Made by a program: the position numbers and the translations under genes. The notes under the pieces were generated by a model, which was given only the letters and a program-made list of their open reading frames with translations, did not search any database and was not told the origin of the DNA. 35,183 bases of DNA from Propionibacteriaceae bacterium (lineage in GTDB: Bacteria > Actinomycetota > Actinomycetes > Propionibacteriales > Propionibacteriaceae): positions 1 to 35,183 of the forward strand of contig WQZD01000029.1 of the NCBI GenBank assembly GCA_009780915.1, read 5' to 3'. Positions 23,191 through 35,183 of the stretch are shown in pieces. Each line of letters opens with the position of its first letter. Position 1 is the first letter of the stretch.

Positions 23191-24618
23191 CTAGAGCTCG
23201 AGTCCGGGGTACAGCGGGTTGTCGCTCAACAGTTCCTGGGCGCGGGCGTGGACGCGGTCGGCCACACCGTCGGCCAGGACGTACTTGGCCTTGCTCGGCC
23301 CCTTCGGGGTCGTGGTCGGCGTGGTGTTGGCCAGCACCTGCGCGATCAGGTCGGCCACCTCGTCGAAATCGGACTCGGTGAAGCCACGGGTGGTCAGGGC
23401 GGGGGTCCCGATGCGCACGCCCGAGGTGTACCACGCGCCGTTGGGGTCGCGGGGGACCGAGTTGCGGTTGGTCACCACGCCGGCGTCGAGGAGGGCCGAC
23501 TCGGCCTGACGACCGGTCAGGCCGAAGCTGGACACGTCCATGAGTACCAGGTGGTTGTCGGTGCCGCCGGTGACGAGGCGTACCCCACGCTTCGACAAGC
23601 CCTCCGCCAGGGCTTTCGCGTTGGTGGCGACCTGGGCGGCGTAGGTCTGGAAGGAGGGGGTACGGGCCTCGGCGAAGGCCAGGGCCTTGGCGGCCATGAC
23701 ATGCCCCAGCGGGCCGCCCAGCACCATGGGGCATCCCTTGTCCACCGCGTCGGCGTACTCGGAGGTGGCCAGGACGAAACCGCCGCGCGGACCGCGCAGG
23801 GACTTGTGTGTGGTGGAGGCGACGATGTGCGCGTAGGGGATGGGGTTCTCCTCGCCGGTGAACACCTTTCCGGCGACGAGGCCGGCGAAGTGGGCCATGT
23901 CGACGAACAGGGTCGCGCCCACCTCGTCCGCGATCTCTCGCATGAGGGCGAAGTTCACCCGACGCGGGTACGCGGAGTACCCGGCCACGATGATCAACGG
24001 GCGGAACTCTTTGGCTGTGGCACGCAGCGCGTCATAATCGATGAGGCCGGTATCGGGGTTCGTGCCGTACGAGTGCTGCTGGAACATCTTGCCGGAGATG
24101 TTGTGGCGGAACCCATGGGTGAGGTGGCCGCCGGCGTCCAGGGACATGCCCATGACCTTCTGGGCGTTGAACTCGTGGCGCAGAGCCTCCCAGTCGGACT
24201 CGCTGAGGTCGTTGACCGTCGCGGCCTGGAGGCGGGCGAGGGTGGGGGACTCCACGCGGTGGGACAGGATGGCCCAGTACGCGACCAGGTTCGCGTCGAT
24301 CCCGGAGTGGGGCTGAACGTAGGCGTGGTCGGCCCCGAAGAGGGCTTCGGCGTGCTCGGCGGCGACCGACTCCACGGTGTCGATGTTGCGGCACCCGGCG
24401 TAGAACCTGTGGCCGACCGTGCCCTCGGCGTACTTGTCCGACATCCAGGTGCCCATCGCCATGAGCGTCGGCAGGGATGCGTAGTTCTCGGACGCGATCA
24501 GCTTCAGCGATTCGCGCTGGTCGCTCAACTCCTGGCGGGTGGCGTCGGCCACACGTGGCTCGACACTGGCGATGGTGTCGAGGATCTGTGAATAAATCGA
24601 CGAGACGGATGCGGTCAT
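23191..24618 (-). CDS. glyA: Serine hydroxymethyltransferase
   Basis: GlyA interconverts serine and glycine with tetrahydrofolate, supplying one-carbon units in the cytoplasm. The 475-residue PLP enzyme shows [25 protein letters not shown], the [14 protein letters not shown] segment, FVDMAHFAG with PLP-stacking H242 and D240, and the Schiff-base lysine K272 in [13 protein letters not shown]. It is longer than the common ~420-residue form because of an insert at about residues 120-152 ([16 protein letters not shown]...), which occurs in a known subgroup of bacterial enzymes. The ATG at 24618 has AAGGAG 5 nt upstream on the minus strand; an in-frame upstream codon at 24693 lacks such support. 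It is divergent from the giant surface protein gene across a repeat-filled gap. Confidence 0.96.
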
Positions 24619-24891: not shown

Positions 24892-25522
24892 GGGGGCATG
24901 AATAGTCGTTTTTCGGGCGGATATGGACAGTTCGTGCCCCCGTGGCCGCTCCCGCGACCGGGGATGGTCGTGGAGGTGGGTCGTGGGGGCGTGAACCGTG
25001 CTTTTTCGGGCTGAAATGCACGGTTCGTGCCCCCGCAGAAATCGTGGGGGCGTGAACCGTGCTTTTTTGGGTTGAAGTGCACGGTTCGTGCCCCCGCGAT
25101 GGTGGGTGTGCACGGTTCGTGCCCCCGTGACCGCTCGCGTGGCCGGAGGTGGCCGTGATGGCGTGGGGGCACGAATAGTCGGTTTCCAGGCTGATGTCGA
25201 CAGTTCGTGCCCCCTCGGTTTTAGTGGGGGCACGAATAGTCGTTTTTCGGGCGGATATGGACAGTTCGTGCCCCCGCGACTGCTCCCGCGACTGGGGATG
25301 GTCGTGGAGGTGGGTCGTGGGGGCGTGAACCGTGCTTTTTCGGGCTGAAATGCACGGTTCGTGCCCCCGCAGAAATCGGGGGGGCGTGAACCGTGCTTTT
25401 TTGGGTTGAAGTGCACGGTTCGTGCCCCCGCGATGGTGGGTGTGCACGGTTCGTGCCCCCGCGATGGTGGGTGTGCACGGTTCGTGCCCCCGCGATGGTG
25501 GGTGTGGACAGTTCGTGCCCCC
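24892..25522 (+). repeat. Array of seven 50-nt hairpins and four 31-nt half-units
   Basis: Full hairpins lie at 24892-24941, 24985-25034, 25046-25095, 25165-25214, 25226-25275, 25319-25368 and 25380-25429. All are 50 nt, begin GGGGGC and end TTCGTGCCCCC. Most have a U-rich loop around TTTTTCGGGC (one has GTTTCCAGGC). Two classes exist: GTGAACCGTGC stems and ACGAATAGTC stems. Half-units that keep only the 3' arm lie at 25096-25126, 25430-25460, 25461-25491 and 25492-25522. A degenerate arm follows near 25543-25563. No T-run follows the stems, so they do not look like intrinsic terminators. Long open frames on the minus strand here come from the absence of stops in C-rich repeats and are not genes. 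The function is unknown. Confidence 0.92.
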
Positions 25523-25610
25523 GCGACCACTCCCGCGACCGTGGATGGACAGCTCATGCCCCACGGTTGACATCCATACACGAAGAAAACTCCGAGAACA
25601 TGAAAATAGC

Positions 25611-25640
25611 TATAAGATAGAGTTCACATTGATCGTGAAC
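25611..25640 (+). promoter_or_regulatory. Candidate promoter and operator-like inverted repeat of the giant surface protein gene
   Basis: An A/T-rich TATAAGAT (25611-25618) resembles a -10 box about 50 bp before the start codon. It is followed by a perfect inverted repeat, GTTCAC (25622-25627) and GTGAAC (25635-25640), at the expected transcription start, a typical repressor-site position. A consensus TTGACA at 25567-25572 is too far from this -10 box to pair with it. Confidence 0.4.
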
Positions 25641-25668: not shown

Positions 25669-28600
25669 ATGAGGAAAATTGGGAAACTCGTCGCAGTCGC
25701 AGCAAGTATGGTTCTTATGGTGGCGACGATCGCCGCGATTCCGCAGGTGGTCAACGCAGCGCAGACGCTGCCGTTCCTTCCTCGGTTCAGCACCAATGCC
25801 AATGGCGCCTTGGTGGCGATCGGCAACACACTCATGACCTGCCCCGACACTGACCCGAACTGCGCGTTGGCCAAGACCGGCAAGGCGCCGAACAATAATA
25901 ACAATGCCTATAACATGATCAACCTCGACCTCGACACCGATCCGTCCACGTTCAACTCGTCCATGGCGGACCTCGACCTCCCCGCGGGGGATGGCGTGTT
26001 GTGGGCCGGCCTCTACTGGGGCGCCCGCCTCAAGGCCGGCACCAACGGCGTCGCCGGGACCGGCGACTACAACACCATGGCGCTGAAAGTCCCGGGCGGG
26101 TCGGCGTACATCCCCATCCAGGCGAGCTCGGACCCGGGTGCTCTCTTCGGCCCGCTCACCTCGGGCAGCGACGCCTATCAGCGCTTCGCCGACGTCACCA
26201 CGATCGTGCAGCAGGCCGGCACCGGCGACTACTGGGGCGCCAACGTCGTCGGAGGGACCGGGCAGGATCGGTACGCCGGTTGGTCCCTCGTCGTGGTGTT
26301 CTCGGCACCCGGCATGCCCTTGCGCAACCTGACTGTCTTCGACGGGTTCAACAACGTGGGGAACAACAGCCCCCAGACCATCACGGTGTCGGGGTTCCTG
26401 ACCCCCGTCTCCGGCCAAGTGAACGCGCAGTTGGCCATGGTCGCGTACGAGGGCGACCTGTCGCAGACAGGCGACCGCACCACGCTCAACAACACGCAGT
26501 TGGCGACGGCGGTCTCCCCGGGCAGCAACTTCTTCAACAGCACGAATGACTACTATGGCCAGATCGTCACCAGCGGGAACCCCGCCGACCGCAACCTGCT
26601 CGGCTACGACATCAAGAACCTCGGCACCTCGGGCGTGATCCCCAATGGGGCGACCAGCGCCACCTTCGCCTTCTCGTCGACCGGCGACGCCTACTATCCC
26701 GGCGTCCTCGGCATCGGCATCGACCTCTACGCGCCCGATTTCTCCACCTCCGCCAAGACGGTCGTCGACTTGTCTGGCAACTCGCCCGCACAGCCAGGGG
26801 ACATCCTGCAGTACACGGTGAGGTATGCCAACACGGGCCAAGACCCCGCCACGAAGCTGACCTCCACCGATCCCATTCCGGCGGGGACGGAGTACGTCCC
26901 GGGCTCCCTGCGGATGGTCGACCCGTTCGGCATGACAGTGACCCCCTTGACGGACGCCAGCCTGGATGACCAAGGGGAGTTCACTGGATCTGCGGTACGG
27001 GTACGTATAGGCACGGGGGCTTCCTCGTCCACGGGCGGCAACCTCACCGTCGGCGGGGACTCCCAGGGGTACGCCTTCCAGGTCCGCGTGCTGCCCTCCG
27101 CCGCGGGCACGGTCATCGCGAATATGGCTCACCTGGGCTACATGACCGCCACCACGGGAGTCGGGTCGACCTATGATGTGGCGCCAGTGGAGACTGAGGT
27201 GGCGGAGTGGGCCGACGTGTCCATCACGAAGACGATGTCGCCGAGGGTCGATGTGGCTGGAAGTCCGGTCACGGCGACATTGACGGTCACGAACAACGGA
27301 CCTAACACTGCCACGGGGGTACGTGTCGTTGATCCGATCATTGATGGTTTCACCGGGGTGACGTGGGATTTGAGCGGCGCCGCGGATGGCGGGACCTGTG
27401 AGATCCAGACCCCCGCCGGGTCGGGGGACCAACTCGTCTGCTCCCTGCCCGATCTGCTTGACCAGGACACGATGGTGATCCTGGTGTCCGGCACGATGCC
27501 CCCGGACTCCACGCTGACGACCATGACCGACGTCGCCAGCGTGAGCACGACGGTCTTCGACCCTGACATGACGAACAACGTGTCCTCGGACACGATCCAG
27601 ATCGTCCAGCAGGCCGACCTGTCGATCACCAAGACGGCCGACCAGACGGCGGTCACGCCGGGCACATCCGTGACGTACACACTGACGGCGACGAACAATG
27701 GACCATCAGATGCTGTGGGCGTCCAGATCGCCGACCAGGTGGCCCCCGACAGCACGGATGCTCTGAGCCTGACCTCGATGACGCCCGGCGGCGCGAGCCT
27801 GACCTGCACACAGGCGTCGACGACCGGGGGGACGTGCGTCATCGCCCGCCTGAGGCCGGGGGAGTCGGCGACCGTCGTCGTGGCGGGAGTCCTCGGCCCG
27901 GACGCGACGCAGGGCGCCACGATCACCAACAGCGCCACCGTGTCCTCGGGCACGGTCGACCCCGATCTGAGCAACAACACCGCCGACGCGACCATCACTG
28001 TCGCGCCCCCCAGCGCCGACGTCCGACTCGACAAGGAGGTCAGCCCCGCCACGCTGACGGCGGGCGGTCCCGTCACGTACACCCTGACGGCGACCAACTA
28101 CGGCCCCTCGAACGCGGACGGCGTGACCATCTCCGACACCCTGCCCGCGACGGTGACGGGCATCCAGGCGACCACCGATCGTGGGACGTGCGCGGTCACC
28201 GGCCAGGAGGTCGACTGCGCCATCGGCGTGTTGCCGGCGTCCACGATCTCCGGTTCCCCCGGCGCGACCGCGACCGTCACCATCACCGGCACGGTCGACC
28301 CTGGCGCCACGGGAACGATCAGCAACACCGCGAGCGTGTCGGCGACCACCGACGACCCCGACCTGACCTCCAACACCGCCACGGCGGACGCCCCGGTGCA
28401 GGGCGTCGCTGACATCTCGGTGACGAAGACGGCCGACCGGAGCCGCCTGCCCCTGGTGGGCACCCCGGTCACGTACACCATCAGGATCCACAACAACGGG
28501 CCCTCGGTGGCCCGGGACGTCACCCTGGAGGACCAGATCCCCGCCGGGCTCGTGATGGACGCCGCCACTCCGCCCGACGGGCTTCCCGCCGGGGCGACCT

Positions 28601-31600
28601 GCGACCCCTCCTTCTCGCCGACCTCGGACCCGGACCACACCCTGTGGACCTGCGCGTTGGGCGACATCGGCGTGGGCGTGTCCAACGACGTCGTCATCGA
28701 CCTTTACACGGTCTCGACCGTCAACGCGGCGTCGGCCATGACCGAGACTGTGACCGTGGCCTCCCCGACCGAGCCCTCCTCGCTGACAGGGGACGACACC
28801 GCGTCATGGACCATGGACGCCGGCGCCCTCGCGGACCTGTCGATCGCCAAAACGGTCGACCAGGCCACCCTGCGCGCCGGTGGCACGGCGGTGTACACCC
28901 TGACGGTCGCCAACGCCGGACCCGACGACTCCACCGCCACCGTGACGGACACCCTTCCTCCGGGGGTCTCCCTCATCCCCGCCGGCCCCGGCTCCCAGAC
29001 CTCGTCCGGATGCGCCGCCGACGCCACCGATCCCCAGTCGGTCTCCTGCGTCCCGACGCTGATCCCCGACGGCGGGGCCGACCTCGTCCTCACCCTCGAG
29101 GTCCAGATCGCCCCGGATCTGTCCACTGGCGACACCCTCTCGAACACCGCGGAGGTCACAGGCTCCACGACCGACCCGTCGCTGGCCAACAATCAGACGA
29201 CGCTGACCACCCCCGTCGTCGCCCAGACCAACATCGAGGTCACCGACGTCACGTGGCAGCCGTACCAGGGGATGAACCAGCCGCCCGCCAACCAGTCGAT
29301 CACGTCGGCGCCCGCCGCCTCCTTCGTCTGGCTGACCATGACGATCACCAACACGGGCCCGGCCACAGCGCAGAACACGTCGCTGCTGCTCAACGACGAT
29401 CTGCCCATGTCCGGCGTCACGGCCAACAACACCGATCCCGTCCTGATCTGGTGGAATTCCTCATCCGCCTGGGTCACGACCGGCACCGGCTGCCAGATCG
29501 TCCAGGACGACCTGGCGTGCGCCCTGGACAACGGCGCCAAGGGGTCGACGCTCGATCCGGGCGACTCGGTCACCGTCAGCGTCCTCATGATGGTCCACAA
29601 CTCTGCGCTGCCCACGTCTGGTTCGGCCATCGTCCAAGCCCAGACCACCACCTACGAGCCTGACCTGACGGACAACACCAAGGAGGCGCCGCTCGCGATC
29701 ACCGCCGGAGAAGCGGGCCTGTCCATCCTCAAGACCGCCCAGCCGGGCGACGGCGACAACGGCGCCCTGATCGCCGGGACCTCGTTCGTGTACTCCGTCC
29801 AGGTGTGGCAGGACCCCCGGGACGTCCAGTACACCCAGGGCCTGTCCTGGGCCGACGCCCGTGACGTGGTCGTCACGGATCAGCTTCCCGCCGGTTTCCA
29901 CGCCACCAACGTGTCCACCTCCCAGGGGACCTGCGCCATCGACACGACCGACGACTCGCAGTTCTCGTGCGCGATCGGCACCATCCCTGGCGTGTGGGGA
30001 ACCGTGCCGGGCAACCGCGTGACGGTCATCGTCAGGGGCAGGACCGACTCCGACGTGTCCGGGGCCGACATCCCCAACACCGCGTACGCCAGCACCTCGA
30101 CCAACCCGGGCGAGGAGGTCTCCTCCAGCGTCGACGTCGCGGTGGACTCGGAATCGGATCTGCGCCTGTTCAAGATGGTCGACCCCGGCTCCTCTCAGGC
30201 GAGCGACCTCACACCTGTCTTCTACGTCGGCGGCCAGGTGGGTTACACCCTGACCGTGGTCAACCTCGGACCCTCCGACTCGGGGGCGTCCACGATCACC
30301 GACACCCTGCCCCAAGGGCTGACCCTCAACACGGCCAGTTCCCCCGGATGCCAGGTGGTCCCCCCGGCGCCCGCCGCGCCCGCCTCCCCCCAGGTCGTCA
30401 CCTGCTCGGTGCCTCCCTTGACGTTCGGTCAGGCCCAGGTGGTACGCGTGGTGGCCATGTCGTCGGCCATGGACGACCGGCAAGCCGGCACCGGCCCGGG
30501 CTGCGTGCCCGGCGATCCGTCCCTTCCGTGGGATCCCACGAGCGCTCCCAATCCTCCGGGCTGCGACCAGTACCCCACCTATCCGCGTCAGATCGTCAAC
30601 CAGGCGACGGTGGCGCCCGACGCGGCGAGCCAGGTCGATCCCAACCTCGCGAACAACGCAGCCACGGCGTCGGCATGGCTCGACGCCCAGATGGACGTCT
30701 CGATCTCCACGTACGTGAACACGCCGAACCCGGTCGCCGGGGGGACCGTGACCTTCGGGGCCTTCTCGTCCAACGCGGGGCCGTCCATCGCGAACTTCCC
30801 CTTCGCCGACGCCACCTTCCCGCCCGGCTTCGTCCCGATCTCGACCGACGTGCCCGGCAACATCTGCACATGGACCACCTCGGGGACCCCGGTCCAGTAC
30901 TCCTTGCACTGCGAGTCGATCCCCGCCACGCCGTGGTACATGGTCTTCCTGCCCGGCCAGTCGGCCGTGTCCAGCGTCACCATGAGCATCCCCGACGACG
31001 CGAGCGGCACGTACACGGCCACTGTGGGCACCCACTCCAGCACCGACCAGGCCCACTCGCCCGGCACGGTGGACGTCGGCGACATCAACCTGGCCAACAA
31101 CGTCTCCTCGGTCTCCGTCACGGTGCAGCGCAGTTCGGATCTGAGTGTGACGAAGACCCTCCTCTCCCCAGATCCCCTCGTCGCCGGCCAGCCGGTGAGC
31201 TATGAGGTGAGCGTGAGCAATGCGGGGCCCTCGATCGCGGACGACGTGCTGGTCTCAGACACCCAGCCCGACGGCATGACCTTCCAGCCGGGGTCGAGTT
31301 CGTCCACGTGCTCGGCTGTCGAGCAGACCGAGGGCTCGCCCGTGGTCGAATGCGGATTGGGAACCCTCGGCGTCGGCGACTCGGCCACAGCCACGGTGAG
31401 CTTCCTCGTGGACGCGGGCGTGACGGCCGACAGCATGTGCAACACCGCTGTGGTCGGGTCGGGGTCCCAGGACCCGGACGCGTCGAACAACGTGTCCGAG
31501 ACGTGCGACCCGGTCGTCCCGCCGCCCTTGGCCGACCTGTCCGTGGCGGTGAGCCCCGCGACGGCCTCGGTGTATCCCGACGGCGAGTTCGCCATGGTCG

Positions 31601-34600
31601 GCACGGTGGTCAACAACGGTCCTGGGCCCGCCACCGGCGTGGCCCTGACCTGGCAGATCCCCTCCGGGGTGACCGTCTCCGCCCTCCAGCTGAGGAGCGC
31701 GTCCACCGGGCTGACACCGGACTCCACCTGCACGGTGACGGGCACGACCGCCACCTGCCTGATCGGGGCACTGCCCGTCGGGGACACGGTCTCGTATGAT
31801 CTGACCGGCACGGCCGCAGGGCCCGCTGGCTCGACGTACACGGTGACGGCCAGCGTCACCCAGGACCGTACGGACCCCGACACCACCAACGACCAGGCCA
31901 GCGCCCAGGTCGACGTCGTGGCCGTCCCCACCCCGGCTCTGAACGTCTCCAAGAGCGTCGTCCCGGCGACGGGAGCGGTCAGCCCGGGGGACGCTGTGTC
32001 GTACACGGTCAGTATCGTGAACTCGGGCACGGCCGCCGGAGCGGTCGACGAGGTGGACGACCTCACGGGAGTCCTGGACGACGCCACCATGGTCGCCATG
32101 ACCACCTCGCCAGGCGTCACAGCCCAACTCGTCGGCGGGCATCTGCTCATCACCGGGAGCGTGGACGCCGGGCAGACGGCCACGGTGACCTACGCGGTGA
32201 CCGTGAACCCGGACGGCCAGCGGGGGGACTCCGTCCTGTTCAACGCCGTCGCGGCGGGGGACACTCCTGCCGCCGATCGGCCCACGATCGACACCCCGGC
32301 GTCCCAGTGCGGCCCCTGCACCTGGACCCCTGTCGCCGCCCTCGACCTGGTGAAGACCGCCCAGCCGACCTCCGTCGGCCTGGCCGGGGATCAGATCACC
32401 TACCAGTTCGCCGTCACGAACACGGGTGGCACGAGCGTCGACGGTCTGGCCGTCCAGGACTCCCTCGGGACGCGGGCGGGCGCCATGTCGGCGATCACCT
32501 GCGGGACGACCACGTTGGCGCCGGGGGAGCGGACGATCTGTTGGTCCACCTACACCGTCGCCGCGTCGGACCTGACCGGCGCCCAGATCGAGAACACGGC
32601 CACCGCGACGGGCCTGGCGGGGTCGCAGACCATCACCTCGAATCCGTCCACGGCCGACGTGGGGGTACGGGCGGCGACGGATGTCGGCGTCTCCTTCGCC
32701 CCGACCCAGTCCCAGGTCTATCCCGGCGGGCAGGCCGCATTCACGGCCACGGTGACCAACAACGGTCCGGGGGCGGCCACGGGCGTCCAGATGACGGTGA
32801 CGATCCCCGCGGGGATGTCCGACGTGGTCGGCACACTGAGCAGTGCCGACACCGGCGTCGCCGCCGCGCCCTCGTGCGTCCTCACGGGATCTCAGCTGAC
32901 CTGCGTCGTGGGGGATCTGGGGCCCGGGCAGTCGGCCAGCTTCGGAATCACCGGCGCGGCCGCGGGGCCAGCCGGAACAACGTACACCCTCACGGGCGTG
33001 GTCACCCACGGCGAGGCCGACACCGATCCTGGCAACGACCAGGCCGACCACGTCGTCACCGTGGTCGCGGCGCCTGTGCCGGCCCTGATCATGGCGAAGA
33101 GCGTCAGTCCGACGGACCCCGTCGTCACGGCGGGGACGCTCCTGACGTACACCATCACCCTGACCAACATCGGACCGGCGCCCGCCGTCGTGAACCACGT
33201 GGACGATCTGTCCGGCGTGGTCGACGACGCCGACCTGGTCTCGGTGTCCGCCGACCCAGGTCTTGACGCGGGCGTCTATGGGGGCGATAATCTTGCTATC
33301 ACGGGGACTGTGGACCCAGGGCAGAGCGGTCGCGTTACTTACACCGTCAGGGTGAAAGCTAACGGAGAACGCGGCGACTCTGTCCTGTTCAACGCTGTGT
33401 CGTCGGGTGACACGCCGCCAGGCGAGCGCCCCACGATCGACACGCCAACGAGCCAGTGTCCGACCTGCGTCACCACGAGGGTGGCGGGGTTGGCGCTGGC
33501 GAAGACGGCATCACCGACGGTGGCGACCTTGGCGGGTCAGGTGGTGACCTATCGTTTCCTCGTCACGAACGACGGTAGTGTGCCGGTCGGCGACGTGGGC
33601 ATTTCTGACACCGACTTCTCCGGGGCGGGCACGCTCTCGGCGCCGGTGTGCGAGTCGACACAGCTCGATCCCGGGGCGTCCACGACCTGTGCCGCGACCT
33701 ATGCCGTCCAGCTGCACGACTTCTTGGATGACTGGCTCACCAACCAGGCGACGGCTTCCGGGATGGCCTTAGGCGTGCCGGTGGTGTCCGATCCCAGTTC
33801 GGCCCAGGTCGCGTTGACCCAGGCCACGGACGTGGGTGTGTCGATCACCCCGGACTCCCGGCAGGTCTATCCCGGTGGGCAAGTGGGATTCACCGCCACG
33901 CTGACCAACAACGGGCCGATGGACGCGACCGCCGTGCAGATGGCCTGGCAGGTCCCTGGAGGGTTGAGCAACGTGTCGGCCACCCTGTCCGGGTCCACGG
34001 ACGGGCTCACGCGCGAGGTGTCGTGCTCGATGACGGGCGCGACGATGGTGTGCCAGGTGGACGGGCTCGGCGTGGGGGAGTCCGTGTCGTACGACCTGAT
34101 CGCACGGGTGACGGGCCCAGCGGGGACGACCTACGCGATCCAGGGAGTCTCCACCCACGGCGAGGCGGACACCGATCCGAGCAACGACCAGGCCCAGGCG
34201 ACGATCGAGGTCGTGCCCGTTCCCGTCCCGCTCGTGACCATCGCCAAGGCGGTCAGCCCCGCCGATTCCGTGGTGCTCGCGGGCACGGAGCTGGCCTACA
34301 CGATCACGCTGACCAATCCGGGCATCGTCCCTGCGGTGATCGATCACGTGGACGATCTGAGCGCGCTGCTCGACGACGCGACCCTGGGGCCGATCACGGC
34401 GAGCACGGGACTCACGACTCAGGTTGTCGGCCAGGACATGATGATCTCCGGGGTGATCGATCCGGGGCAGTCGGCCACGGTGAGCTACACGGCCACGGTC
34501 CTCCCTGACGGTCAGCGAGGGGACTCCGTGGTCTTCAACTCGGTCTTCCCCGCGGACACCCCTGATCAGGGACGCCCCGGACTGGGGTCGACGTGTGCGG

Positions 34601-35183
34601 GGTGCGTGACCACGGACGTGGCCGGGCTGATGATGACCAAGAGCGTGTCGCCGACCACGGCCGGCGCCGTCGGCGAGCAGGTGAGTTACCAGTACGAGGT
34701 CACCAATGTGGGCTCGGTCGCGGTGGGGGATCTGGCGATCGTCGAGACGGCCTTCTCCGGCTCCGGCGCGTTGCAGGATGCGTCGTGTGTGGTGGGGAGT
34801 GTGGTGTCGGGGCAGAGTCTGGCGCCGGGGGAGTCCACCATGTGTACGGCCCTCTACACCGTGACGGACGCGGACATGACCGCTGGCTTCGTGGACAACA
34901 CGGCTGTGGTGTCGGGGTCGGTCTCCGTGGTGTTGGGAACGGGGCAACCGTCTGTCCTGGATGTCACGTCGGATCCCAGCAGCGCCAGATTGACGGTGAC
35001 ATCGACGCCGACTACGCCGCCGACGAGTCCGCCGACCACGCCACCCACGTCTCCGCCGACGAGTCCTCCGACTACGCCGCCGACGAGTCCGCCGACCACG
35101 CCACCCACGTCTCCGCCGACGAGTCCTCCGACTACGCCGCCGACGAGTCCGCCGACCACGCCACCCACGTCTCCGCCGACGAG
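25669..35183 (+). CDS. Giant DUF11-repeat surface protein (3' end outside the window)
   Basis: The frame is open from ATG 25669 to the right edge, at least 3,171 residues. AGGAG lies 5 nt before the ATG. A signal peptide (MRKIGKLVAVAASMVLMVAT..., cleavage near VNA-AQ, residue ~31) is followed by a non-repeat N-terminal domain (about 31-360, with AYNMINLDLDTD and GVLWAGLYWGARL). From residue ~363 comes a long string of DUF11-type beta-sandwich domains, each opening like ADLSVTKT and continuing YTLTVTNNGP and DTLP. Domain starts lie near residues 363, 515, 649, 783, 914, 1055, 1187, 1349, 1496, 1673 and 1823. Three ~382-residue supermodules start at 1955, 2337 and 2720. From about residue 3112 a Pro/Thr/Ser stalk begins. 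A C-terminal sorting signal is expected beyond the edge but unseen. It is probably a wall-anchored adhesin. Confidence 0.93.
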   Translation, partial: MRKIGKLVAVAASMVLMVATIAAIPQVVNAAQTLPFLPRFSTNANGALVAIGNTLMTCPDTDPNCALAKTGKAPNNNNNAYNMINLDLDTDPSTFNSSMADLDLPAGDGVLWAGLYWGARLKAGTNGVAGTGDYNTMALKVPGGSAYIPIQASSDPGALFGPLTSGSDAYQRFADVTTIVQQAGTGDYWGANVVGGTGQDRYAGWSLVVVFSAPGMPLRNLTVFDGFNNVGNNSPQTITVSGFLTPVSGQVNAQLAMVAYEGDLSQTGDRTTLNNTQLATAVSPGSNFFNSTNDYYGQIVTSGNPADRNLLGYDIKNLGTSGVIPNGATSATFAFSSTGDAYYPGVLGIGIDLYAPDFSTSAKTVVDLSGNSPAQPGDILQYTVRYANTGQDPATKLTSTDPIPAGTEYVPGSLRMVDPFGMTVTPLTDASLDDQGEFTGSAVRVRIGTGASSSTGGNLTVGGDSQGYAFQVRVLPSAAGTVIANMAHLGYMTATTGVGSTYDVAPVETEVAEWADVSITKTMSPRVDVAGSPVTATLTVTNNGPNTATGVRVVDPIIDGFTGVTWDLSGAADGGTCEIQTPAGSGDQLVCSLPDLLDQDTMVILVSGTMPPDSTLTTMTDVASVSTTVFDPDMTNNVSSDTIQIVQQADLSITKTADQTAVTPGTSVTYTLTATNNGPSDAVGVQIADQVAPDSTDALSLTSMTPGGASLTCTQASTTGGTCVIARLRPGESATVVVAGVLGPDATQGATITNSATVSSGTVDPDLSNNTADATITVAPPSADVRLDKEVSPATLTAGGPVTYTLTATNYGPSNADGVTISDTLPATVTGIQATTDRGTCAVTGQEVDCAIGVLPASTISGSPGATATVTITGTVDPGATGTISNTASVSATTDDPDLTSNTATADAPVQGVADISVTKTADRSRLPLVGTPVTYTIRIHNNGPSVARDVTLEDQIPAGLVMDAATPPDGLPAGATCDPSFSPTSDPDHTLWTCALGDIGVGVSNDVVIDLYTVSTVNAASAMTETVTVASPTEPSSLTGDDTASWTMDAGALADLSIAKTVDQATLRAGGTAVYTLTVANAGPDDSTATVTDTLPPGVSLIPAGPGSQTSSGCAADATDPQSVSCVPTLIPDGGADLVLTLEVQIAPDLSTGDTLSNTAEVTGSTTDPSLANNQTTLTTPVVAQTNIEVTDVTWQPYQGMNQPPANQSITSAPAASFVWLTMTITNTGPATAQNTSLLLNDDLPMSGVTANNTDPVLIWWNSSSAWVTTGTGCQIVQDDLACALDNGAKGSTLDPGDSVTVSVLMMVHNSALPTSGSAIVQAQTTTYEPDLTDNTKEAPLAITAGEAGLSILKTAQPGDGDNGALIAGTSFVYSVQVWQDPRDVQYTQGLSWADARDVVVTDQLPAGFHATNVSTSQGTCAIDTTDDSQFSCAIGTIPGVWGTVPGNRVTVIVRGRTDSDVSGADIPNTAYASTSTNPGEEVSSSVDVAVDSESDLRLFKMVDPGSSQASDLTPVFYVGGQVGYTLTVVNLGPSDSGASTITDTLPQGLTLNTASSPGCQVVPPAPAAPASPQVVTCSVPPLTFGQAQVVRVVAMSSAMDDRQAGTGPGCVPGDPSLPWDPTSAPNPPGCDQYPTYPRQIVNQATVAPDAASQVDPNLANNAATASAWLDAQMDVSISTYVNTPNPVAGGTVTFGAFSSNAGPSIANFPFADATFPPGFVPISTDVPGNICTWTTSGTPVQYSLHCESIPATPWYMVFLPGQSAVSSVTMSIPDDASGTYTATVGTHSSTDQAHSPGTVDVGDINLANNVSSVSVTVQRSSDLSVTKTLLSPDPLVAGQPVSYEVSVSNAGPSIADDVLVSDTQPDGMTFQPGSSSSTCSAVEQTEGSPVVECGLGTLGVGDSATATVSFLVDAGVTADSMCNTAVVGSGSQDPDASNNVSETCDPVVPPPLADLSVAVSPATASVYPDGEFAMVGTVVNNGPGPATGVALTWQIPSGVTVSALQLRSASTGLTPDSTCTVTGTTATCLIGALPVGDTVSYDLTGTAAGPAGSTYTVTASVTQDRTDPDTTNDQASAQVDVVAVPTPALNVSKSVVPATGAVSPGDAVSYTVSIVNSGTAAGAVDEVDDLTGVLDDATMVAMTTSPGVTAQLVGGHLLITGSVDAGQTATVTYAVTVNPDGQRGDSVLFNAVAAGDTPAADRPTIDTPASQCGPCTWTPVAALDLVKTAQPTSVGLAGDQITYQFAVTNTGGTSVDGLAVQDSLGTRAGAMSAITCGTTTLAPGERTICWSTYTVAASDLTGAQIENTATATGLAGSQTITSNPSTADVGVRAATDVGVSFAPTQSQVYPGGQAAFTATVTNNGPGAATGVQMTVTIPAGMSDVVGTLSSADTGVAAAPSCVLTGSQLTCVVGDLGPGQSASFGITGAAAGPAGTTYTLTGVVTHGEADTDPGNDQADHVVTVVAAPVPALIMAKSVSPTDPVVTAGTLLTYTITLTNIGPAPAVVNHVDDLSGVVDDADLVSVSADPGLDAGVYGGDNLAITGTVDPGQSGRVTYTVRVKANGERGDSVLFNAVSSGDTPPGERPTIDTPTSQCPTCVTTRVAGLALAKTASPTVATLAGQVVTYRFLVTNDGSVPVGDVGISDTDFSGAGTLSAPVCESTQLDPGASTTCAATYAVQLHDFLDDWLTNQATASGMALGVPVVSDPSSAQVALTQATDVGVSITPDSRQVYPGGQVGFTATLTNNGPMDATAVQMAWQVPGGLSNVSATLSGSTDGLTREVSCSMTGATMVCQVDGLGVGESVSYDLIARVTGPAGTTYAIQGVSTHGEADTDPSNDQAQATIEVVPVPVPLVTIAKAVSPADSVVLAGTELAYTITLTNPGIVPAVIDHVDDLSALLDDATLGPITASTGLTTQVVGQDMMISGVIDPGQSATVSYTATVLPDGQRGDSVVFNSVFPADTPDQGRPGLGSTCAGCVTTDVAGLMMTKSVSPTTAGAVGEQVSYQYEVTNVGSVAVGDLAIVETAFSGSGALQDASCVVGSVVSGQSLAPGESTMCTALYTVTDADMTAGFVDNTAVVSGSVSVVLGTGQPSVLDVTSDPSSARLTVTSTPTTPPTSPPTTPPTSPPTSPPTTPPTSPPTTPPTSPPTSPPTTPPTSPPTTPPTSPPT
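31531..34980 (+). repeat. Three tandem ~1.15-kb supermodules of three DUF11-type domains
   Basis: Supermodules begin at about 31531, 32677 and 33826. Each has the same order: a VYPGG-type domain, a VDDL-type domain (VDEVDDLTGVLDD, VNHVDDLSGVVDD, IDHVDDLSALLDD) ending in an RGDS segment, then a CxxC linker and a third domain (LVKTAQP, LAKTASP, MTKSVSP). Spacing is 382-383 residues. Divergence between copies shows the triplication is not recent. Confidence 0.88.
35009..35183 (+). repeat. Perfect 60-bp tandem repeat encoding a Pro/Thr/Ser stalk
   Basis: From about 35009 to the edge the sequence repeats exactly every 60 bp (about 2.9 copies seen). It encodes a 20-residue unit of TPPTSPP and TTPP blocks. 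Identity at the DNA level points to a recently expanded, length-variable tract, typical of wall-spanning regions before a sorting signal. Confidence 0.92.

Follow-up and report, generated by a model that had tools for sequence, protein, structure and literature searches.

Between glyA and a giant adhesin-like gene, a genome of the Propionibacteriaceae carries an array of seven hairpins of 50 nt, which belong to a family of short DNA palindromes encountered in this one genome among those searched; the family is probably REPIN- or MITE-like and non-autonomously mobile, with no dedicated role at the adhesin gene. The stretch of DNA analysed (the window, 35,183 nt) is contig C29 of a 2.78-Mb genome in 45 contigs, with a completeness of 99.37%. 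Each hairpin of the family is built from two inverted, near-invariant half-sites, GGGGGCRYGAAYNGT (of approximately 15 nt), that lie 35 or 36 nt apart and enclose a variable core of 20-21 nt. The initial annotation described seven 50-nt elements that start with GGGGGC and end with TTCGTGCCCCC, in two stem classes and in a divergent intergenic region, and this description is accurate: all seven are present at 24892-25429, together with four lone right half-sites between and beyond them; the stems are AATAGTC/GACAGTT in three of the seven and AACCGTGC/GCACGGTT in four; and glyA on the minus strand and the adhesin gene on the plus strand are both directed away from the array. The array had also been extended to 25522, and this stretch is real, but what it contains after 25429 is lone right half-sites and no hairpins. 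The features of the region are the following (those listed without a strand have none assigned):

23191..24618, minus strand: glyA (serine hydroxymethyltransferase), left neighbour, with transcription pointing away from the array
24892..25464: tandem duplication, 24892-25130 against 25226-25464, offset 334 bp, 239 nt, 97% identity
24892..24941: hairpin 1, 50 nt, AATAGTC class
24985..25034: hairpin 2, 50 nt, AACCGTGC class, first member of a pair
25035..25045: spacer GCAGAAATCGT, 11 nt, separating hairpins 2 and 3
25046..25095: hairpin 3, 50 nt, second member of the pair
25112..25126, minus strand: lone half-site, 31 nt past the right half-site of hairpin 3
25165..25214: hairpin 4, 50 nt, AATAGTC class, first member of a pair
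25215..25225: spacer TCGGTTTTAGT, 11 nt, separating hairpins 4 and 5
25226..25275: hairpin 5, 50 nt, second member of the pair; the repeat copy of the duplication starts here
25319..25368: hairpin 6, 50 nt, first member of a pair, identical in sequence to hairpin 2
25369..25379: spacer GCAGAAATCGG, 11 nt, separating hairpins 6 and 7
25380..25429: hairpin 7, 50 nt, second member of the pair, identical in sequence to hairpin 3
25446..25522, minus strand: three lone half-sites, starting at 25446, 25477 and 25508, with a period of 31 nt
25549..25563, minus strand: decayed half-site with 2 mismatches
25609..25620, plus strand: GCTATAAGATAG, putative promoter region of the adhesin gene, picked by eye; its counterpart in the relative G018 is GCTATAGGGTAG
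25669..35181, plus strand: giant adhesin-like gene, right neighbour, transcribed away from the array and continuing beyond the end of the window

The seven hairpins have folding energies of -25.9 to -34.8 kcal/mol (z of -4.5 to -6.6), values equalled by 0 of 200 shuffles, and the window has 14 occurrences of TTCGTGCCCCC at up to one mismatch where 1.6 would be expected, a count that 0 of 100 shuffles reached. Owing to the 334-bp tandem duplication, the seven hairpins do not amount to seven independent elements; judging from these internal repeats, the local array appears to have been enlarged partly by that duplication and partly by half-site repetition. With regard to the neighbouring genes, the closest named records of the glyA product (SHMT) are Propionibacteriaceae metagenome bins with an identity of at most 92%, while the adhesin-like protein contains DUF11 within its first 800 residues, which are the part that was scanned. 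A promoter scan of the window region found none, including for the candidate picked by eye at 25609..25620. Beside the array, the segment 24740-24880 is a low-complexity G- and T-rich stretch with a 30-bp tandem repeat.

The hairpins are not confined to this locus, and the REP/MITE-like option raised in the initial annotation was upheld to the extent that they form a dispersed, high-copy family. The 50-nt pattern with up to three mismatches matches the genome 50 times on the forward and 40 times on the reverse strand, many of these matches being co-located, against 0 for the reversed control; a looser self-complementary pattern, searched exactly, gives 80 matches per strand, equivalent to about 80 places; and the half-site with up to one mismatch gives 266 matches against 5 for the reversed pattern. 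In the fetched stretches (298 kb) there are at least 94 hairpins, 62 of 50 nt and 32 of 51 nt (94 of 96 units retained, two 56-nt arm pairs in the window having been dropped as artefacts), in at least 38 clusters, a lower bound beyond which more are possible, particularly of the 51-nt form on contigs beyond C17.

The family has a strict geometry. It most commonly occurs as two hairpins in direct orientation, separated by 11 A-rich nucleotides (a unit of approximately 111 nt), at times with one additional half-site (approximately 140 nt). The spacer measures 11 nt in 35 of 36 hairpin pairs and, in a larger set, in 39 of the 42 gaps of less than 40 nt between hairpins; its consensus is aC.AAAAtC.. 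(35 spacers, with the strand picked by the count of A over T). The offsets between half-sites are quantised: 35/36 nt in the plus-minus arrangement, 26 nt in the minus-plus arrangement, and 61/62, 29-31 and 42 nt on the same strand. Additional half-sites lie at 29-31 nt or 42 nt, and among 30 spacer-oriented pairs a lone half-site is located 29-31 nt upstream in 10 and downstream in 4. The two arms of a hairpin agree less than expected by chance at position 7 (26/82 against 42.5 expected) and more than expected at position 13 (54 against 36.3).

The members of a pair are direct repeats of each other, with a core similarity of 0.63 in direct and 0.44 in inverted comparison (0.51 and 0.49 between other pairs). 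The notion that the pair as a whole is a REPIN, that is, a single hairpin of 111 nt, was rejected because the two cores repeat each other directly, and this despite the fact that the minimum-energy fold is the long hairpin in 28 of 35 pairs. The long fold of real pairs gains -7.6 kcal/mol, against -10.3 kcal/mol for shuffled partners (60 sets), and flipping the second hairpin stabilises it. Homology between distant loci can end at the outer ends of the hairpins, as in C1:4201-4340 and C25:7945-8084; many such homologies extend 14 to 70 nt beyond the pair, and the mobile unit is thus one without a sharp definition. In the cores of 4 of the 96 units (C17:31541, C17:60855, C17:61019 and C5:87849) there are perfect, even central palindromes of at least 10 nt, such as TGTGAGCGCTCACA (C17:31541) and TCTACGCGCGTAGA, that resemble operators of the LacI family. 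The one at C17:31541 is flanked by what are presumably beta-glucosidase-like and ilvD-like ORFs; the resemblance was put down to coincidence.

The search of the genome and its relatives that the initial annotation recommended returned many copies in the former and none in the latter. Neither the exact hairpin pattern in 39 relatives nor the 50-nt form with up to three mismatches in 197 other genomes of the Propionibacteriaceae appears among the matches listed; the exact pattern found no match in the GTDB r220 species genomes or in IMG/VR, bearing in mind that such collection scans may omit the source genome or a very near one and that exact patterns are blind to diverged versions. Phage and plasmid records, searched with a single 142-bp query each, gave no match either. 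The half-site alone shows a slight excess in 18 relatives of the genus, which are presumably of termite-gut origin, judging from bin names: 98 in total (0-11 per genome) against 62 for the control (0-9). Similar families were sought in samples of five of these 18 relatives (G001, 367 kb; G008, 137 kb; G003, 113 kb; G017, 60 kb; G015, 40 kb), and no hairpin with exact 11-nt arms was found at a second site.

Counterpart sites in relatives are likewise free of the element. G018 has glyA next to an adhesin gene (identified by eye), with approximately 340 bp and no such hairpin between the two, against approximately 1050 bp here. Three relatives, G010, G016 and G018, had both gcvT and ahpC in the fetched locus, and none of them shows a hairpin of the family at that site; the relatives are too diverged for the insertion points to be placed at these sites. 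The gcvT-ahpC interval of G010 (L172) contains a different G/C-rich inverted repeat, GGCTGCCGGGGGTCCTGCC... The literature searched on Propionibacteriaceae palindromes and on REP and short palindromic repeats of Actinobacteria names no such family. It had been suggested that absence from every related genome would count against the proposal; absence is what was found among the genomes searched, and a species-specific family still stands.

The placement of the family is mostly extragenic. Of 34 clusters placed, out of 38, 33 are extragenic by the gene calls or close to a contig end, one of these 33 lying over a small predicted ORF, the gene calls coming from a simple codon-usage script that missed at least one gene (DUF559, on C15). 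The functions of the neighbours are diverse (respiration, protein quality control, sugar hydrolysis, purine synthesis, transport and others), and no common function was found among the 52 of 59 flanking ORFs that were scanned (50, along with glyA and the beginning of the adhesin gene), for which reason a regulon was rejected. The sole intragenic cluster (C1:119709-119881; L039:5710-5882) is read in frame as part of a cydD-cydC fusion gene, where the segment, composed of the element and 30-nt half-site repeats that encode DSSCPRDGE-like repeats, corresponds approximately to residues 335-393 of the protein (P0001), after the first membrane domain. Among the matches listed, the match is interrupted at this linker in 13 of 18 relatives, which by coordinates have fewer residues there, and a single match spans it in G002, G003, G007, G012 and G016.

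REPINs are described as being copied by a Y1 transposase. Their architecture consists of two inverted conserved arms separated by a diverse spacer (PMC3116915, PMC8049555), and each hairpin of 50 or 51 nt has it, with a conserved half-site and a variable core, while the pair does not. The family also resembles REPINs, as PMC3116915 presents them (inverted conserved sequences of approximately 16 nt with a diverse spacer), in its hairpins, its many copies, its extragenic location and its tandem clusters; it differs from that description in having no RAYT, no GTAG tag, direct pairs 11 nt apart and lone half-sites that are not decayed. A search for the Y1 (RAYT-type) transposase, PF01797, gave 0 matches in the source genome (99.37% complete, 45 contigs), so that the REP-associated transposase suggested in the initial annotation was not encountered. 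The GTAG tag is found within 8 nt of the ends in 0 of 36 pairs, GGAG being near 5, and the half-sites 29-31 nt upstream on the same strand number 32 among 240 anchors at 0-1 mismatches and none at 2-3, a distribution without the decay of singlets relative to doublets. Given these three results on RAYT, tag and singlet decay, the family is a REPIN-like variant and not a member of the REPINs.

Two other classes of repeats share some of these properties. The CGTC-tagged REPs, which include RPE-4 and RPE-6 of Rickettsia, are described as having stems of 8-9 bp, loops of 4-5 nt and a CGTC tag (PMC3733652); like them, the family is palindromic, lacks a known transposase and, as with some of them, includes a copy in frame in a gene, but its stems are longer than those reported there, and CGTC (on either strand) is near just 7 of 36 pairs. 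Like prokaryotic MITEs as reviewed in PMC10969869, it is short, has inverted ends and is chiefly intergenic; in contrast to the MITEs of that account, neither a target-site duplication nor an autonomous relative was found for it, Y1 alone having been sought. Duplications of 3-9 nt were absent from all 36 of 36 pairs, and such duplications fade with age.

The preferred explanation is that an enzyme that reads the half-sites would have spread copies through intergenic DNA, most likely a single-strand (HUH/Y1) transposase that has since been lost or is absent from the assembly, and that arrays, once placed, would then grow by tandem duplication and half-site repetition. Its best reading is that the enzyme is lost, missed or from another class. 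Both the mobility and the class of the enzyme are inferences, a single strain being represented. There is one observation that transposition alone leaves unexplained, namely the constraint on half-sites between local duplicates. In 10 aligned pairs of duplicated segments, the fixed positions of the half-sites differ in 14/582 cases (2.4%) and their degenerate positions in 21/212, compared with 53/407 (13%) in the cores and 112/1012 (11%) in the remaining positions (three of the 10 pairs come from one trio and are partly dependent, and a half-site was counted if intact in at least one copy). Half-sites are therefore approximately 5-fold less divergent than cores or flanks, which implies that the half-site is retained while the rest drifts, and for the same reason it may be that something still reads them.

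This constraint makes binding by a host protein the main rival, although it is considered rather unlikely. According to this proposal, the half-site is the predicted binding site of a protein of the host with a nucleoid-organising, insulating or regulatory role on DNA, bound arrays are retained, and the symmetry of the hairpin reflects binding to inverted pairs with a fixed spacing. The quantised offsets are consistent with it, and so are the partners of 240 anchors, which have 0 mismatches in 167 cases, 1 in 19, 2 in 1 (0-2 in 187), 3 in none and 4-11 in 53; half-sites at 29-31 nt are split in the same manner into intact and absent. The anchors, however, are half-sites with at most one mismatch, and loci in which both half-sites have decayed escape the count; gene conversion among copies could likewise keep half-sites similar. 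Moreover, the scanned neighbours have no common function, the spacings are inconsistent with multiples of the 10.5-bp turn (by arithmetic), and the half-site is barely above control in the genus, which means that both site and protein would be novel to one species. There is also a small chance that the arrays constitute a chromosomal marking system, new in one species, that is still being read and in which a host or domesticated protein, acting on GGGGGCRYGAAYNGT half-sites at fixed spacings, would preserve and spread insulating or organising arrays without a RAYT.

It is improbable that the pairs act as terminators or attenuators at gene ends, by means either of a strong RNA hairpin together with a T-run in the spacer on one strand or of an alternative hairpin in the centre, with the T-run of the core behind it. 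The initial annotation noted that no T-run follows the elements, which is correct for the hairpins as drawn; an alternative hairpin (25018-25062), formed between the right arm of a hairpin and the left arm of its successor, would be followed by a T-run from the successor's core. The spacer consensus is T-rich on the opposite strand, a result favoured by the way in which the strand was chosen, and the spacer T-run itself is conserved. In addition, convergent gene pairs are somewhat over-represented at the array sites (9/30, against 9/71 of the other intergenic regions; p 0.049) and divergent ones under-represented (4/30 against 26/71; p 0.031), these values being approximate owing to crude gene calls; the tests exclude the intragenic cluster C1:119709 and count two C15 clusters as one gap. 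Terminator action is possible at convergent sites. Against it, the T-rich strand matches gene direction in 10 of 16 tandem cases (p 0.45); the window region contains 2 terminator-like sites compared with 1.2 in shuffles (sd 1.1), which places the T-run arrangement within the level of chance; and the genes on either side of the window array are divergent. As described above, less energy is gained by the long fold in real pairs than with shuffled partners, and spacer-oriented arm mismatches over the first 17 positions show no excess of G-T over A-C (27 against 33 in H1, 29 against 31 in H2).

Another proposal, quite improbable, overlaps with the preferred explanation and differs from it in the enzyme: the half-sites would be terminal inverted repeats (TIRs) that an insertion sequence of a conventional type (DDE or other) left behind and that multiplied once it was gone. 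The G-rich inverted ends agree with it, and the start of the family, GGGGGCRC, is near the motif GGGGWSAS reported for the TIRs of TIRYT transposases (PMC3733652), yet outside it. Like the TIRYT repeats in that report, the family consists of dispersed inverted repeats in dimers or groups; it differs in that the fifth base is G where the motif has A or T (G in 191/191 paired half-sites, selected at no more than one mismatch from a pattern with G there), and in that the genome has no Y1 transposase. The absence of target-site duplications counts against the proposal, as does the absence of transposase families from the 52 of 59 flanking ORFs scanned, the genome-wide search having covered Y1. Within the genus, PF01797 is present only in G012 and G014, and the hairpins near those genes are, by eye, unrelated to the family. 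On three contigs, C6, C39 and C42, arrays lie within approximately 400 bp of an end, and hence a contig gap may conceal an enzyme. A DUF559/REase_MTES_1575 gene on C15 (L054:4591-5472) has family arrays on both sides, while a second DUF559 gene, on C19, has no family hairpin among the matches listed; the gene between arrays is only a lead.

A second repeat of 98 bp was observed in the same genome, in six copies: C26:28676-28773 (L032:12677-12774), C4:40283-40380, C39:1-98, C42:1-98, C34:28451-28548 and C2:133202-133296. The copies have 93-96% identity to that on C26, which folds as a cloverleaf, and there is a 72% match in G015. At C26 and C4 the repeat lies within inverted flanks (by eye); it starts contigs C39 and C42, and C34 terminates 25 bp past its copy.

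The remaining options of the initial annotation, that the array is a structured RNA or regulates the adhesin gene specifically in cis, are very hard to credit: seven strong hairpins do lie upstream of that gene, but at least 37 further clusters exist in the genome, beside unrelated genes where these were scanned, the array is upstream of the putative promoter region, and in G018 no such array accompanies the adhesin gene. An RNA family was rejected, given that the arm mismatches show no G-T over A-C strand bias and that Rfam 15, a match to which had been named as grounds for rejection, gave 0 matches above the gathering score (11 weak ones, all below).

The preferred explanation, a non-autonomous mobile family of the REPIN/MITE type, thus concerns the whole genome, and the window array most likely has no dedicated function where it is, because it sits between genes that are transcribed away from it. 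Without more evidence it should not be read as a regulator of the adhesin gene. Its significance lies elsewhere: a REPIN-like family has reached approximately 100 hairpins in one genome, with no Y1 transposase found, with a strict 11-nt pair geometry and with half-sites that are intact in paired and unpaired copies alike. The family therefore lends itself to testing two alternatives, a mobilising enzyme that has so far escaped recognition and a host function by which such repeats are preserved.
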